Of a DNA stretch of 64,000 bases, positions 22,921 to 49,786 are shown in pieces. Origin of the DNA: an uncultured Geobacteraceae bacterium. Lineage in GTDB: Bacteria; Desulfobacterota; Desulfuromonadia; Geobacterales; Pseudopelobacteraceae. The position numbers and the translations under genes were made by a program. Position 1 is the stretch's first letter. Each line of letters begins with the position of its first letter. Location: positions 48,273 to 112,272 of the forward strand of contig CAIQWT010000060.1 of NCBI GenBank assembly GCA_903875605.1, read 5' to 3'. The notes below the pieces were generated by a model. It searched no databases. It was not told where the DNA came from and saw only the letters and a program-made list of their open reading frames with translations.

Positions 22921-24164
22921 GAATTTCAACATTGAGCATCGGCGATGAACTGATTTGCGGCCAGTTGACTGATACTAACGCCGGCACTATAGCTGCCAGG
23001 CTGCTTACAGAAGGGCTGCGCGTTCAACGGCATCTTACGGTTGGTGACAGTGAACCCGATATTATCGGTGCGTTGAGTGACCTGGGGAGGATTAGCGACG
23101 CGATCATAGTAACCGGAGGACTCGGCCCAACGGCAGATGATCTGACGTCGCGGGCTGCTGCACGTGCTACGGGGCGGCGACTGGTCATTCATGAAGAGGC
23201 TCGCAGCCATGTCCGCCTGATGTCGGGCAAGCTTCAAAGCCTGATTGTATGCCCTTTGAGCGATAAACAGGCCATGATTCCGACCAAATCTGTGCTGATA
23301 CCCAATCCTAATGGAACCGCCTGTGGTTTTCATTTTATGCACAACGGCTGTTTCATGTTTTTCATGCCCGGTGTCCCTTCAGAAATGGTTGTGATGCTGC
23401 GTGATACAGTTATCCCATTCGTTATGGAGCGGGTTCCACGCAAGCGAATTATTCGCACTTTCAGCATTAACCTGTTTGGGCCGTGTGAAGCGGAAGTTGA
23501 TGAATTGCTCCTGGGTATCGCCAGAGTGGAGCAAGGCTTAACGCTTGGCATATGTGTAACATTCCCCTGGATGAAAGTGACTTTGCGAGTTGAAGCTGAC
23601 AGTGAAGATGCTGCCGCCAACCTTCTTGCGCCGGCAGTTCTTCAGGTGCGGGAGCGTTTGAAAGAGTATTGTTTCTCCTCCGGCAACATCAGCATGGATG
23701 AAACAGTAGCCGAGCTCTTTCGCAACGGTTGCCTGACGCTTTCTCTTGCTGAGTCGTGTAGTGGCGGTTTTATTGCGAAACGGATAACCGATATTCCCGG
23801 CAGTTCACAGTATTTCTGTGAAGGTTTAGTGACATATTCTAATGAAGCAAAAACACGTCTGCTGGGGGTTTCCGGTGATGTCCTTAACAGCAGCGGTGCC
23901 GTTAGTGCTGAATGTGCTTCTGCGATGGCCAAAGGTGCCAGGCTGGCTTCCGGAAGTGACCTTGGTTTGGCGGTAACCGGTATTGCCGGACCTGATGGCG
24001 GCAACGATGACAAGCCTGTCGGTACGGTATTTATCTCGCTTGCAGCCCCGGACGGATGCTGGACCAAGCGTTTTCAATTTAGCGGGTGCAGGGAGGAAGT
24101 ACGCATCATGACGGCATGGACGTCTCTGGATTGGCTGCGGAGATATCTGCTGAAAAAGGTGTAG
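22917..24164 (+). CDS. cinA: CinA family protein (two-domain)
   Basis: [63 protein letters not shown] motifs. Confidence 0.95.
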
Positions 24165-34842: not shown

Positions 34843-36066
34843 ATGGCAAAGAAACAGGAAATAAAAAAAATCGTCCTTGCATATTCTGGCGGACTAGACA
34901 CTTCTATTATCCTCAAATGGCTTAAAAACGAATATGGCTGTCAGGTAGTGGCCTTTTCTGCGGACTTAGGGCAAGGCGAAGAGCTTGATCCGGTTCGCGA
35001 AAAAGCTCTGGCCACTGGGGCAGATACCGTCTATATCGATGACCTGAAAGAAGAATTTGTCAGCGACTTCGTATTTCCGATGTTCCGCGCCAATGCTATC
35101 TATGAAGGGCACTACCTGCTTGGTACTTCAATTGCACGCCCGCTCATAGCCAAGCGCCAGATGGAAATCGCCGCCCTGGAAGGGTGTGACGCAGTTTCTC
35201 ACGGGGCAACAGGTAAGGGTAACGATCAGGTTCGGTTCGAGTTGGCATACTATCACTTCGACCCGTCTATCAAAGTTATCGCACCTTGGCGTGAGTGGGA
35301 TCTTAACAGCCGCATGGCTTTAATTGAATACGCCCAGAAGAATGATATCCCTATTCCGACGATCCAGAAGCGCCCATGGTCGTCCGACCGTAACCTGCTG
35401 CATATATCCTTTGAAGGTGGCATCCTGGAAGACACCTGGGCCGAAGCACCGGAAGAAATGTACGTGCTGACAAGGCCTCCGGAAGAGGCTCCAGATAAGG
35501 CTCAGTATGTAGAGATCGAATTCAAAAACGGTAATGCTGTTGCTGTTGATGGAGTTGAAATGACTCCAGCACGACTGCTCGCGCACCTCAATATTCTCGG
35601 TGGGCAGCATGGTGTCGGCCGTGTCGATCTGCTTGAGAACCGCTCGGTTGGCATGAAGTCGCGCGGTGTCTATGAAACCCCTGGTGGCTCGATTCTGCGC
35701 GAAGCGCATTCGGCTGTCGAGCAGATTACCATGGACCGTGAAGTCATGCGTATCCGTGACAGCCTGATTCCCGAATACGCAAAACAGATCTACGCCGGTT
35801 ACTGGTTCTCACCTGAGCGTTTGATGTTGCAGACTCTAATCGACGATTCACAAAAATGTGTTAACGGAGTCGCCCGTGTCAAGCTGTATAAAGGCCTCTG
35901 TCGCACAGTCGGGCGTAAGTCGGAAAGTGACTCTCTCTTTAACCTCGACTTTGCTACTTTCGAGAAAGACCAGGTTTTCAACCAGGCTGATGCAGAAGGT
36001 TTTATCAAAATCAATAGTCTGCGGCTGCGTATCCGCTCGCTGATGCAGGCCAATAGAAAGAAGTAA
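34843..36066 (+). CDS. argG: Argininosuccinate synthase
   Basis: [37 protein letters not shown]. Confidence 0.98.
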
Positions 36067-36070
36067 TGGA

Positions 36071-36532
36071 TTGACAAAAAAACGCTACAAAAAAGAGCAC
36101 ATAGTCACTTCAGTTGTTGCGGTGATTGTGGATGAAGAGGGGAGGGTGCTTCTAACGAGGCGAAGCATTCCTCCCTTTCTGGATTTGTGGGTGATGCCTG
36201 GGGGCAAAATAGATCTGGGCGAACCTATCCTGGAGGCTTTGAAGCGGGAAGTGTATGAAGAAGTAGGGCTGGAGATTGAAATTGACGGGTTAATAGATGT
36301 CTTTGAACACCTCACTCCAGGTGATGATAATTGCCACTTCGTCATACTCTATTACCGCTGTCGCCCACTTCATTGCGATGTTGTGCATAACGAGCATGAG
36401 GTAGCCGAAGCCGTCTGGGTTCCAAGCACAGATTTGGCAGATTTCCCGATGCCGGCCGGTGCACAATATATTTTGGGGAAGATATTTCCTGAGATGTCTC
36501 CTTACAGTGTCTCACGTGGCAACGATGCCTGA
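36071..36532 (+). CDS. NUDIX hydrolase
   Basis: Nudix box GGKIDLGEPILEALKREVYEEVGLEIE; TTG start. Confidence 0.92.
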   Translation: MTKKRYKKEHIVTSVVAVIVDEEGRVLLTRRSIPPFLDLWVMPGGKIDLGEPILEALKREVYEEVGLEIEIDGLIDVFEHLTPGDDNCHFVILYYRCRPLHCDVVHNEHEVAEAVWVPSTDLADFPMPAGAQYILGKIFPEMSPYSVSRGNDA

Positions 36533-37688
36533 AATCATCGATAGAAAAATAAATCTTGAATTTCCCCTGGGACACCACCTGCACTGTATGGTTGCCCAGA
36601 TTCCCATCCATCTTAAACGGGCTGATGTAGGTTTTTGTCTGGTTAATCCTGAAGAACAGTGGCTCTTGATCCGCTCTGTACTTGATTTAGTGGCGGTTGG
36701 GGAGGGGAACCTAAAGAAACTGCATTTTCTGCTGTTTCCTGAATCGAGTCTTCCTGCTTCCCGTTTTGATGATATGCTCGCAATAATTGAACAGCACTTC
36801 CGCCCAAACACAATAACAGTATTCGGGGTTGAACATATCCGGTTGAGCCAATACCGTGACCTGTTAGTGCGTTTCCGTTCTGATAACGCCGAGGCGCTTG
36901 AACTTGTGGATCATGATATTGATTCCGGCGATGTTTTGAATATGCCGGTCAACTGGTGCTGCGTTGCCATAAAAGAGGCTAATGGCAGCTTGCGGGTCTT
37001 CCTTGAGGCAAAAAGTCACCCCTACCACGGTGAGGAATATATCGACACATTTCATGACCTGTATCGCGGCAGACATTTCTATCTGTTTCGCTGTCGTCCG
37101 TCATGCTTCAACTTTATGGCAATTATCTGCCTTGATTACCTGTATCGTGACCTGTACTCGTCCAATATCAGGCAGATTATTGAATATACCAACCAGCTTT
37201 TCTTTGCGACTCGTCAGGGATTAGATGCTCTTTTTGTTATACAGTGCAATCCAAAGCCTGAACACAGAGCCTATCGTGATGTGATCAGTGGATTTTATGG
37301 AGAATACCTGGAGGATATGCCGGGTGTGCGCGAGACGGTTACTGTTTTCGGAAACGTTTCAGAGGAGACAACCATAGAGGGCTCTCCGGTAGAGAACGCG
37401 TATGGCAGCTCATATGTTGTTATTAACCAGAAACATCGCCTGGCTCAAGTATGTTTTTCAGAATTTAACACGGATGACTTTGATGGTGCTCCTGTTTGCC
37501 GGTTGCGTTTCGGCTCTGGAACAAGACTGCTTTATTTTAATCTGCCTCCGCAGCACGAAAATGACCCGCGAACTTCGCGAGTGCCGCTCAAGGTTCACGC
37601 AATTATGGCCGTTGACAATTCTGGTGTCTGGCATAAAATTGCAGTTGATGAACAAGTGACCGGTTGGCAGGACGATAAATCTAAATAA
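36525..37688 (+). CDS. Divergent carbon-nitrogen hydrolase (nitrilase superfamily)-like protein
   Basis: Candidate Glu-Lys-Cys triad in order: LLFPESS, EAKSHPYHGEEY, AIICLDYLYRD; ATG overlaps the NUDIX stop (ATGCCTGA). Confidence 0.65.
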   Translation: MPEIIDRKINLEFPLGHHLHCMVAQIPIHLKRADVGFCLVNPEEQWLLIRSVLDLVAVGEGNLKKLHFLLFPESSLPASRFDDMLAIIEQHFRPNTITVFGVEHIRLSQYRDLLVRFRSDNAEALELVDHDIDSGDVLNMPVNWCCVAIKEANGSLRVFLEAKSHPYHGEEYIDTFHDLYRGRHFYLFRCRPSCFNFMAIICLDYLYRDLYSSNIRQIIEYTNQLFFATRQGLDALFVIQCNPKPEHRAYRDVISGFYGEYLEDMPGVRETVTVFGNVSEETTIEGSPVENAYGSSYVVINQKHRLAQVCFSEFNTDDFDGAPVCRLRFGSGTRLLYFNLPPQHENDPRTSRVPLKVHAIMAVDNSGVWHKIAVDEQVTGWQDDKSK

Positions 37689-37703: not shown

Positions 37704-39080
37704 ATGTCTAAAGATAAATTGTGGGGCGGACGCTTCACTCAGCCCACTGATAAGTTCGTCGAAGAGTTCACAGCCTCTATCCAATTCGACAAACGTCTCT
37801 ATCATCAAGATATTCGTGGTTCAGTTGCTCATGCCCGTATGCTGGGCAAGCAAGGGATAATTCCACTTGATGACGTTGAGAAAATTGTCCACGGACTCCA
37901 GAAAATACTGCTGCAGATTGAGACTGGCAATTTCGATTTTTCCATAAGTCTTGAAGATATACATATGAACATTGAAGCGCGTCTGTCCGCAGCTATTGGT
38001 GAGGCTGGGAAACGTTTACACACCGGGCGTTCACGAAATGATCAAGTCGCGTTGGATATCAGACTTTACCTTCGAGATGAGATAGTTGAGATCACAACAT
38101 ATCTTGACCTATTGATTGACGCCTTGCTGATTCAGGCAGAGGCACATATTGATACCTATATGCCCGGATTCACCCATCTACAAACTGCCCAGCCGATCCT
38201 GTTCGCCCACCACCTGATGGCGTATGTTGAGATGTTCAAGCGCGATAAGGGGCGTCTTGACGATTGTCTGAAACGGGTCAATATTATGCCTCTAGGGGCC
38301 GGTGCGCTGGCCGGAACAACCTTCCCGATCGACCGTGAATATGTTGCTGAGCAGCTTGATTTCTCCTCAATAACTCGTAATTCGCTTGATTCGGTATCCG
38401 ATAGAGACTTTGCCCTTGAATTTTTAGCAGATGCTTCAATTGTGATGATGCATCTGTCCCGTTTTTCTGAAGAACTAATTGTCTGGTCAACAAGCGCATT
38501 TCAATTTATAGAACTGTCCGATGGTTTCTGTACCGGATCATCAATTATGCCACAGAAAAAAAATCCTGATGTGCCGGAACTGGTTCGCGGCAAGACCGGC
38601 CGTGTTTATGGTAATCTGATGTCATTATTGACGACAATGAAAGCTCTGCCTTTGGCTTACAACAAGGATATGCAGGAAGATAAAGAACCTCTTTTTGACA
38701 CTATCGACACTGTCAAGGGGAGTCTTAAAATATTTGCTGAGATGATCCGTGAGATGCGGGTCGATGTGGGTAGTATGCGCAAAGCAGCAGGTCAGGGATT
38801 TTCTACGGCTACCGATGTTGCTGATTATCTGGTACGCAAGGGTCTCGCCTTCCGCGATGCTCATGAGGTGGTCGGCAAGTCTGTTGCGTACTGTGTAGAA
38901 AACGAGATGGATATAACGGAACTGTCGCTGGCGGAATGGCAACTGTTTTCAGCTAAAATAGACACAGATATTTTTGAATGTATTACAGTAGAAGCCAGTG
39001 TTAACGCCCGTAATGTGCCGGGTGGAACGTCCCGAGAACGTGTATGGAATGAAATTCAGAACGTACGTGCAGGAAACTAA
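37704..39080 (+). CDS. argH: Argininosuccinate lyase
   Basis: [47 protein letters not shown]. Confidence 0.98.
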
Positions 39081-39086
39081 TCTAAG

Positions 39087-39950
39087 ATGTATTGCGATTT
39101 CTTCGGTTTTTCAGAAAAACCATTTACTATTACCCCAAATCCACATTTCGTGTTTTTGAGCAGCATTCACCGCGAAGCATTTGCCAGATTGCTGTACGGA
39201 GTCGAAAGCCATGCCGGCTTCATAGCACTTACCGGTGAGGTCGGGACCGGCAAAACAACAATGCTCCGCACACTGCTGACCCAGCTTGACCCCGATAAGT
39301 TTACAAGCGCGCTGATCTTTAATCCTTGTATGTCTGCGGAGCAGCTTCTTGCGAGTATTTGCCGTGAGTTTGGTGTTGCACCTGATGAGCAGAATCGCTT
39401 TGGTTATTTCGATGCACTTAATCGTTTTCTTATTGAACAGAATAGCAACGGCCGGACAGTTGTTCTGGTCGTCGATGAAGCACAAAACCTTGAGCCTGAA
39501 GTCTTGGAACAGGTGCGCATGATCTCCAATCTGGAGACAGAACGGGATAAGCTGATACAGATCATCCTTGCCGGGCAACCGGAGCTGAATGATGTCCTTA
39601 ATCGCCATGATCTGCGCCAGCTTAATCAGCGCATTACAGTTCGCTGCCGCTTGACCCCTATGAAGCTTGAAGACACGACTTATTACATAAATCACCGCCT
39701 TAAAATAGCTGGAAGCCGGATCCCTGAAATCTTTTCTCGTACAGCGATCAGGCGGATATATCGTTTTTCACACGGGATTCCACGACTGATAAATATAGCC
39801 TGTGAACAGGCGTTGGTAATGGCCTGGACCACTGAGACCCATTCTGTCTCATCTGCCATTGCTGCTGAAGTTGTTGCAGAGCTTCAGCCGAATGAGGAGC
39901 GCAGAGGTTTGTGGTGCCGTATTTCTAGCTGGCTTTTTGCCGGAAAGTGA
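39087..39950 (+). CDS. ExeA/GspA-like AAA ATPase
   Basis: FFGFSEKPFTITPNPHFVFLSSIHREAFARLLYGV, Walker A GEVGTGKTT, Walker B VVLVVDEAQNL. Confidence 0.9.
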   Translation: MYCDFFGFSEKPFTITPNPHFVFLSSIHREAFARLLYGVESHAGFIALTGEVGTGKTTMLRTLLTQLDPDKFTSALIFNPCMSAEQLLASICREFGVAPDEQNRFGYFDALNRFLIEQNSNGRTVVLVVDEAQNLEPEVLEQVRMISNLETERDKLIQIILAGQPELNDVLNRHDLRQLNQRITVRCRLTPMKLEDTTYYINHRLKIAGSRIPEIFSRTAIRRIYRFSHGIPRLINIACEQALVMAWTTETHSVSSAIAAEVVAELQPNEERRGLWCRISSWLFAGK

Positions 39951-48004: not shown

Positions 48005-49786
48005 ATGAGCGAAAACGCAGGAATACAGATTCTTATCTGCCAGGGAACTGGCGGAATTTCGATGGGCGCCAAAGAAGTTGAGACAGCATTCATAACATTG
48101 CTTGCTCAAAAAGGCGTGGATGCAGTTGTCGGTAAGCGGTGTGACGTTATAAAAACCGGTTGCCGCGGTCTGTGTGCCAACGATGTTCTGGTTGATATAA
48201 TCACTCCCGAACAGGGTCGCGTAACCTATGACTTTGTCAAACCTGAAGAGGTTGAAAAAATTATTGACGAACATATCGTCAAAAAAGAGATTATCGAAAA
48301 ACGCAAAGCAAAACCTTACTATAACCAGTTTGTTGACGCCCAGATGCGTGTTGTAATGACGGGTTGCGGTCAAATCGATCCTGACAGTATCGATGCATAT
48401 AAAAATGAAGAAGGATTCAAAGCTATAGAGAAGTGCGTTAAATCAATGAAGCCGGAAGAAGTAATTGATGAAGTCAAGAAGTCAGGCCTTCGTGGCCGTG
48501 GCGGCGGCGGATTCCCGACCGGAATGAAATGGTCTTTCTGCAAAGCGACTCCAGGTGATCATAAATACCTGATCTGTAATGCTGACGAGGGCGATCCAGG
48601 CGCTTTTATGGACAGATCGCTTCTTGAAGGCGACCCCTACTGTATTATTGAAGGTATGATGATTGCCGCGTATGCAATCGGTTGTGACTTTGGTTATGTT
48701 TATGTTCGCGCCGAATATCCGTTGGCTGTGCAGCGTCTTCAGCACGCCATTGATGTCTGTTACGAAAAAGGCTATCTCGGAAAGAATATTCAGGGATGGG
48801 GTCTTGACTTCGATATGCGCATTAAAATGGGCGCCGGTGCTTTTGTTTGCGGTGAAGAAACTGCATTAATGGCTTCAATTGAAGGTCATCGCGGCATGAG
48901 TCGACCACGTCCTCCATTCCCGGCTGTTCGCGGTCTGTGGGGTAAACCGACTAACATTAATAATGTTGAGACATTCGGTAACGTTCGTCATATTATTAAC
49001 AAAGGTGGCGATTGGTACGCATCATTAGGTACTGAAACTACTAAAGGTACTAAAATATTTGCAGTAACCGGTAAAGTTAAGCACACCGGGCTCGTAGAAG
49101 TACCTGCCGGTATGAAAATCCGCGAAGTTATCTATGATGTCTGTGGCGGTATTGCTAACAACCGTAAATTCAAGGCTGTCCAGGCCGGCGGCCCTTCCGG
49201 CGGGTGTATTCCTGCTGAGATCCTTGATACTCCAGTTGACTATGATTCTCTGATTAAAGCCGGCGCAATGATGGGCTCGGGTGGTCTGGTTGTTATGGAT
49301 GAAACAACTTGTATGGTTGACGTATCACGATTCTTCCTTAATTTTACCAGGATGGAGTCTTGTGGCAAGTGCGTACCATGCCGAATTGGTCTGAAGGTAA
49401 TGCTCGACATTCTTGAGCGTATCACAGAGGGACGTGGTGTTCCTTCAGATATAGAAACGCTTCAGGATCTTGGCGTTGCCATCAAAAAAGCTTCACTTTG
49501 CGGTCTCGGACAAACTGCTCCGAATCCGATTCTTTCCACTATTAACTATTTCCGGCATGAATATGAAGCGCATATTAACGAGAAACGCTGTCCATCTAAC
49601 TGCTGTAAAGAGCTTCTGTTATGGCAGGTTGTTGAAGACAAGTGTGTCAAGTGTGGTGCGTGCAAAAAAGTCTGTCCGGTTGATGCAATAGTATGGGAAA
49701 AAGGCCAGTTAGCTTATCTCGACAAGGAAAAATGCACTAAGTGCACATCCTGCTATGACGCCTGTCGCTTTATGGCTCTAGAATAG
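48005..49786 (+). CDS. nuoF: NADH-quinone oxidoreductase subunit F with N-terminal thioredoxin-like and C-terminal 2x[4Fe-4S] ferredoxin domains
   Basis: GLRGRGGGGFPTGMKWSF, ESCGKCVPCRIG; N-terminal thioredoxin-like Cys residues (CQGTGG, GCRGLC); C-terminal CVKCGACKKVCP and CTKCTSCYDAC. Confidence 0.96.
   Translation: MSENAGIQILICQGTGGISMGAKEVETAFITLLAQKGVDAVVGKRCDVIKTGCRGLCANDVLVDIITPEQGRVTYDFVKPEEVEKIIDEHIVKKEIIEKRKAKPYYNQFVDAQMRVVMTGCGQIDPDSIDAYKNEEGFKAIEKCVKSMKPEEVIDEVKKSGLRGRGGGGFPTGMKWSFCKATPGDHKYLICNADEGDPGAFMDRSLLEGDPYCIIEGMMIAAYAIGCDFGYVYVRAEYPLAVQRLQHAIDVCYEKGYLGKNIQGWGLDFDMRIKMGAGAFVCGEETALMASIEGHRGMSRPRPPFPAVRGLWGKPTNINNVETFGNVRHIINKGGDWYASLGTETTKGTKIFAVTGKVKHTGLVEVPAGMKIREVIYDVCGGIANNRKFKAVQAGGPSGGCIPAEILDTPVDYDSLIKAGAMMGSGGLVVMDETTCMVDVSRFFLNFTRMESCGKCVPCRIGLKVMLDILERITEGRGVPSDIETLQDLGVAIKKASLCGLGQTAPNPILSTINYFRHEYEAHINEKRCPSNCCKELLLWQVVEDKCVKCGACKKVCPVDAIVWEKGQLAYLDKEKCTKCTSCYDACRFMALE

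Follow-up and report, generated by a model that had tools for sequence, protein, structure and literature searches.

A NUDIX hydrolase gene and a gene for a divergent nitrilase-superfamily protein, here called NIT, form a real pair in genomes of the bacterial class Desulfuromonadia. The catalytic residues are conserved, and the two genes are paired, co-occur and have moved jointly. Since the pair is kept together across a whole class, the two proteins probably work together. We give about an even chance to the possibility that they constitute a functional two-enzyme pair for metabolite repair or salvage, acting on one metabolite or on two linked ones. No paper on this locus or on the NUDIX-NIT pair was found in a search that mostly covered literature outside subscription journals.

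Gene organization of the locus

The window analysed here is a stretch of 64,000 nt of contig CAIQWT010000060.1 (GCA_903875605.1), forward strand, positions 48,273 to 112,272, and all positions below are those of the window. An earlier note on this DNA described a NUDIX gene and an overlapping gene for a protein of about 387 aa between argG and argH. Both open reading frames are indeed found there, sharing 8 bases (Table 1). The TTG start codon of NUDIX lies 4 bases past the argG stop, NIT begins with ATG, and 15 bases separate the end of NIT from argH. The TTG start and the 8-base overlap are conserved in most close relatives. Directly 3' of argH lies an ExeA/GspA-like AAA ATPase gene (39087-39950). 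It is present after argH in the window's genus and in several genera of its family, at 66-87% identity, and was not detected in the loci of other families.

Table 1. Features of the NUDIX-NIT locus, in window positions
Feature	Position	Strand	Evidence
argG (argininosuccinate synthase), upstream neighbour	34843..36066	+	ORF and homology across relatives
NUDIX hydrolase gene, 153 aa, TTG start, MutT-like	36071..36532	+	PF00293, E 3e-23
Nudix box GKIDLGEPILEALKREVYEEVGL, NUDIX residues 45-67	36203..36271	+	regular-expression match
NIT, predicted divergent nitrilase-superfamily protein, 387 aa	36525..37688	+	AlphaFold2 model, Foldseek
8-base overlap ATGCCTGA, NUDIX stop joined to NIT start	36525..36532	+	sequence
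Codon of NIT Glu73, catalytic base by homology	36741..36743	+	E in 79/79
Codon of NIT Lys163, catalytic Lys by homology	37011..37013	+	K in 79/79
Codon of NIT Glu170, candidate second Glu of nitrilase tetrad	37032..37034	+	E in 79/79
Codon of NIT Cys202, nucleophile by homology	37128..37130	+	C in 79/79
argH (argininosuccinate lyase), downstream neighbour	37704..39080	+	ORF and homology across relatives

Sequence and predicted structure of the two proteins

The NUDIX protein shares the canonical Nudix box (GX5EX7REUXEEXGU) with MutT-type hydrolases, and among solved chains it comes closest to MutT, NUDT18, a probable pyrophosphohydrolase and NudI. It scores below the cut-offs of all listed NCBIfam equivalog families.

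Profile searches with NIT returned no Pfam and no NCBIfam family, and a PHROGs search gave nothing useful. PF00795, the profile of the nitrilase superfamily, does not match the window protein even at E<=1; among 79 NIT homologues it matches two, weakly, with a best E of 0.011. This absence of a curated family agrees with the earlier description of NIT as divergent from standard nitrilases. It had also been proposed that the fold be checked by structure prediction. With 24 aligned sequences AlphaFold2 reached a pLDDT of just 61, whereas an alignment of 79 gave a good model (pLDDT 86.9, pTM 0.91). When this model was compared with the PDB by Foldseek, all 27 matches at E<=0.001 belonged to the nitrilase superfamily, the best being amidases (E 3.4e-9). 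They comprise aliphatic amidase, formamidase, carbamoyl-D-amino-acid amidohydrolase, vanin-1 and Lnt. A viral structure library contained no match at E<=0.001. NIT is therefore, by prediction, a nitrilase-superfamily protein with the alpha-beta-beta-alpha fold. With TM-scores of at most 0.55 against the best nitrilases, it is a divergent member of the superfamily; at 387 aa it is also longer.

The Glu-Lys-Cys triad that had been read from the sequence is in the right order. The motifs are LLFPESS (E73), LEAKSHPYHGEEY (K163, E170/E171) and AIICLDYLYRD (C202), so that a second Glu follows shortly past the Lys, as it does in the superfamily. E73, K163, E170 and C202 are identical in all 79 aligned homologues, one of which is just 22% identical to the window NIT, and these motifs are therefore not a product of chance. 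In the model, C202 comes after a strand (residues 196-201), and where the triad residues fall in the secondary structure would be compatible with their lying within reach of each other. When NIT is aligned by hhalign with the genome's four ordinary nitrilases, K163 and C202 fall into register with their Lys and Cys, although the alignment is not significant (E 0.13).

These four are the PF00795 genes of the genome, and NIT is not among them. Judging from their sequences, one resembles AguB and lies beside an agmatine-deiminase-like gene, and the others resemble an omega-amidase, Lnt and the glutaminase half of NadE. We considered NIT as the carbamoylputrescine amidase (AguB) of the genome and dropped this candidate, given that the PF00795 gene beside the agmatine-deiminase-like gene fills that role and AguB is present in 93 of 96 relatives irrespective of NIT. 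A replacement of the NMN deamidase PncC by NIT was likewise dropped, as PncC is found in 93/96 relatives whether or not NIT is present. A PncC domain (CinA C-terminal, NMN deamidase) lies at about 23712-24146 of the window, about 12 kb upstream of NIT. Many relatives have it on the NIT contig at a similar distance from NIT, probably through ordinary synteny.

Distribution and pairing

NIT is present in 64 of 98 close relatives and in 146 of 244 Desulfuromonadia genomes. Outside the class, a sample of the phylum (n=297) yielded a single remote, partial match. The NUDIX orthologue occurs in 148 of the 244 class genomes (E<=1e-25). Cross-counting the two genes gives 140 genomes with both, 6 with NIT only, 8 with NUDIX only and 90 with neither; these are not 244 independent tests because the genomes are related. 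NUDIX stands directly upstream of NIT in 61/63 relatives and at 26/34 class-wide loci. These counts answer in the affirmative the question raised in the earlier note, namely whether the pairing is conserved in relatives. The sequence identities of NUDIX and NIT track each other (r 0.91, 0/2000 permutations), consistent with joint inheritance or transfer.

Anaeromyxobacter, a Myxococcales MAG and Holophagaceae carry NIT but no NUDIX orthologue, and NUDIX stands alone between argG and argH in three genomes (G142, G170 and G182). Neither gene, therefore, strictly needs the other. In a tree of 63 NIT sequences, those from Anaeromyxobacter, the Myxococcales MAG and Holophagaceae are nested among Geobacterales, and this nesting, some forks of which are weakly supported, suggests transfer.

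Further NIT copies, about 51-54% identical to the window NIT, were seen at loci L160, L167, L176, L178, L180-L183 and L186. They form two separate clades in the tree and adjoin neither arg genes nor NUDIX. Some genomes hold both this kind and the window type.

Genomic context and the proposed arginine link

The commonest gene order is argG-NUDIX-NIT-argH. The two arg genes enclose the pair in 50/61 close relatives and at 26/34 class-wide loci, across many families. In the NIT tree, too, this arrangement is the most frequent one, and it extends over most of the branches. Pairs without arg neighbours occupy three places in the tree: a same-genus clade, a clade of two MAGs of the Geobacter group, and a Myxococcales MAG. 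At two such loci (L050 and L059) a YhaM-like OB/HD exoribonuclease gene lies directly upstream of NUDIX, and at L052, L057, L061 and L063 an ABC-F-type ATPase gene lies upstream of it, directly or nearby. Among 25 relatives that lack NIT, the stretch read at argH shows argG directly before argH in 16 and NUDIX alone there in one (L204); for the remaining eight, the 1.5 kb read contained no argG. No NUDIX orthologue was found in those checked of the relatives with bare argG-argH and no NIT. The NIT genes of other phyla have no arg neighbour.

The earlier note tentatively linked the pair to arginine or carbamoyl metabolism. This link is not supported: about three lineages have the pair intact at a distance from arg genes, argG-argH also occurs without the pair, and AguB, the nitrilase one would expect in arginine metabolism, is present regardless. 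Together with the occurrence of NIT without NUDIX in other phyla, these observations leave an arginine role doubtful.

Relationship to Lamassu and DRT nitrilases

The best match of NIT in any profile library is the PADLOC model of LmuA with a C-N hydrolase effector domain (PDLC03850), at E 3e-25 between NIT residues 8-303 and model positions 11-305. The LmuA model fails to match three of the genome's ordinary nitrilases, and in a search of the whole genome it finds only NIT, so the match is not a generic nitrilase signal. The PADLOC RT_UG5-nitrilase model matches around the catalytic Glu, without significance (E 0.03). Some Lamassu effectors carry C-N hydrolase domains (PMC10586767, a review). 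For the nitrilase of DRT1, its authors suggest substrates such as ATP, GTP or NAD+ (PMC13275509).

The likeness to LmuA is confined to the N-terminal half of that protein. NIT, with its 387 aa, does not have the C-terminal (docking) half of the 604-position model, and its neighbours are NUDIX and arg genes rather than LmuB, which is SMC-like, or LmuC. Moreover, NIT is a stable chromosomal gene. Without a C-terminal half and without LmuB, it is not a Lamassu component. DRT nitrilases belong with class 3 UG/Abi reverse transcriptases, whereas no reverse-transcriptase domain or gene accompanies NIT. No relatives of NIT were found in the phage, plasmid and viral-contig collections searched.

At another locus (L203, positions 1135-2895, genome G291), we noticed a 586-aa protein whose nitrilase-like N-terminal part is 22% identical to NIT over the aligned part. 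It matches PADLOC LmuA with E 3e-11 and is a possible Lamassu effector; no SMC-like gene lies in the 14 kb read.

Possible function of the pair

On the repair or salvage reading, NUDIX would cleave a substrate of the nucleoside di- or triphosphate type, either a nucleotide that is damaged or unwanted or a metabolite linked to a nucleotide. NIT would be a Cys-Glu-Lys(-Glu) amidase of the nitrilase fold and would break an amide-like C-N bond of that metabolite or of a related one, the two together performing a repair or salvage step. Both enzymes would then be active, in a common and nucleotide-linked pathway. In the commonest arrangement the pair would be co-translated with argG and argH, and we propose that what places it there is the steady expression of this operon and not an arginine intermediate as substrate. 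The resemblance of NUDIX to MutT-type nucleotide hydrolases speaks for this reading, as does the fact that other amidase roles are already filled. Against it count the genomes, in the class and outside it, that carry just one of the two genes, the modest TM-scores of NIT, and the wide retention of the argG-argH position. A comparable arrangement is NitFhit, in which a Nit amidase is fused to the nucleotide hydrolase Fhit. It also joins a nitrilase-fold amidase with a nucleotide hydrolase, but the latter is a HIT and not a NUDIX protein, the two are fused instead of separate, and Nit1 is an ordinary PF00795 protein.

The same retention of position could point to a direct part of the pair in arginine or carbamoyl metabolism. 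It might, for instance, dispose of a by-product formed from citrulline or argininosuccinate by carbamoylation or cyclisation, and NUDIX would take away a nucleotide adduct arising in the argG reaction, which uses ATP. The coverage of most of the NIT tree by the arg-linked arrangement and the N-carbamoyl-D-amino-acid amidohydrolase among the fold matches are in favour of such a role. Nevertheless, we regard it as doubtful, since the pair is intact in unrelated contexts, 16 relatives lack NIT and have nothing between argG and argH (those checked lacking the NUDIX orthologue as well), and NIT in other phyla has no arg neighbour. Alternatively, NUDIX and NIT may be passengers of the operon, two housekeeping enzymes that are each useful in their own right, whose shared operon is a matter of history and which have no common substrate. 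Operon neighbours need not share a pathway, and each gene does occur without the other. The tight co-occurrence of the two nevertheless makes this rather unlikely, as do the repeated cases in which both lie side by side, on one strand, away from the operon.

The LmuA and UG5-nitrilase matches raise the further question of a defence or toxin-like two-gene cassette related to Lamassu and DRT effectors, in which NUDIX would be a regulator or antidote. The absence of the pair in about a quarter of the genus members and its occurrence in several contexts would fit such a cassette. We consider it very unlikely, however, given a single copy, high conservation and stable position across the class, no LmuB-like or reverse-transcriptase partner, and no relatives in the mobile and viral collections mentioned above. 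In mammals, the same combination of a Nudix enzyme and a nitrilase-superfamily enzyme operates in CoA turnover, and by analogy NUDIX would cleave CoA and NIT would be a vanin-like pantetheinase. Vanin-1 is indeed among the fold matches of NIT (E 9e-6). Yet amidases and formamidases rank above it, and no match to the NuCoA motif, the mark of CoA-cleaving NUDIX proteins, was found ahead of the Nudix box, so that CoA turnover seems highly improbable.

The relationship to defence nitrilases may have another meaning. Lamassu and DRT systems could have recruited their nitrilase effectors from NIT, a housekeeping cousin of these, or the recruitment could have gone the other way. The shared substrate would be a nucleotide-derived amide, as the NUDIX partner of NIT would indicate. 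We hold this idea to be speculative and, on balance, quite unlikely. If true, working out the NUDIX-NIT pair would show which molecule the defence nitrilases destroy. With phage-defence nitrilase effectors as its closest relatives in sequence, NIT may be a tractable route to that substrate question. For the Desulfuromonadia themselves, NIT represents a family with a predicted nitrilase fold that neither Pfam nor NCBIfam covers and that most sampled lineages of the class retain. Its class-wide pairing with a probable nucleotide hydrolase suggests a repair or salvage reaction that has so far gone unrecognised.
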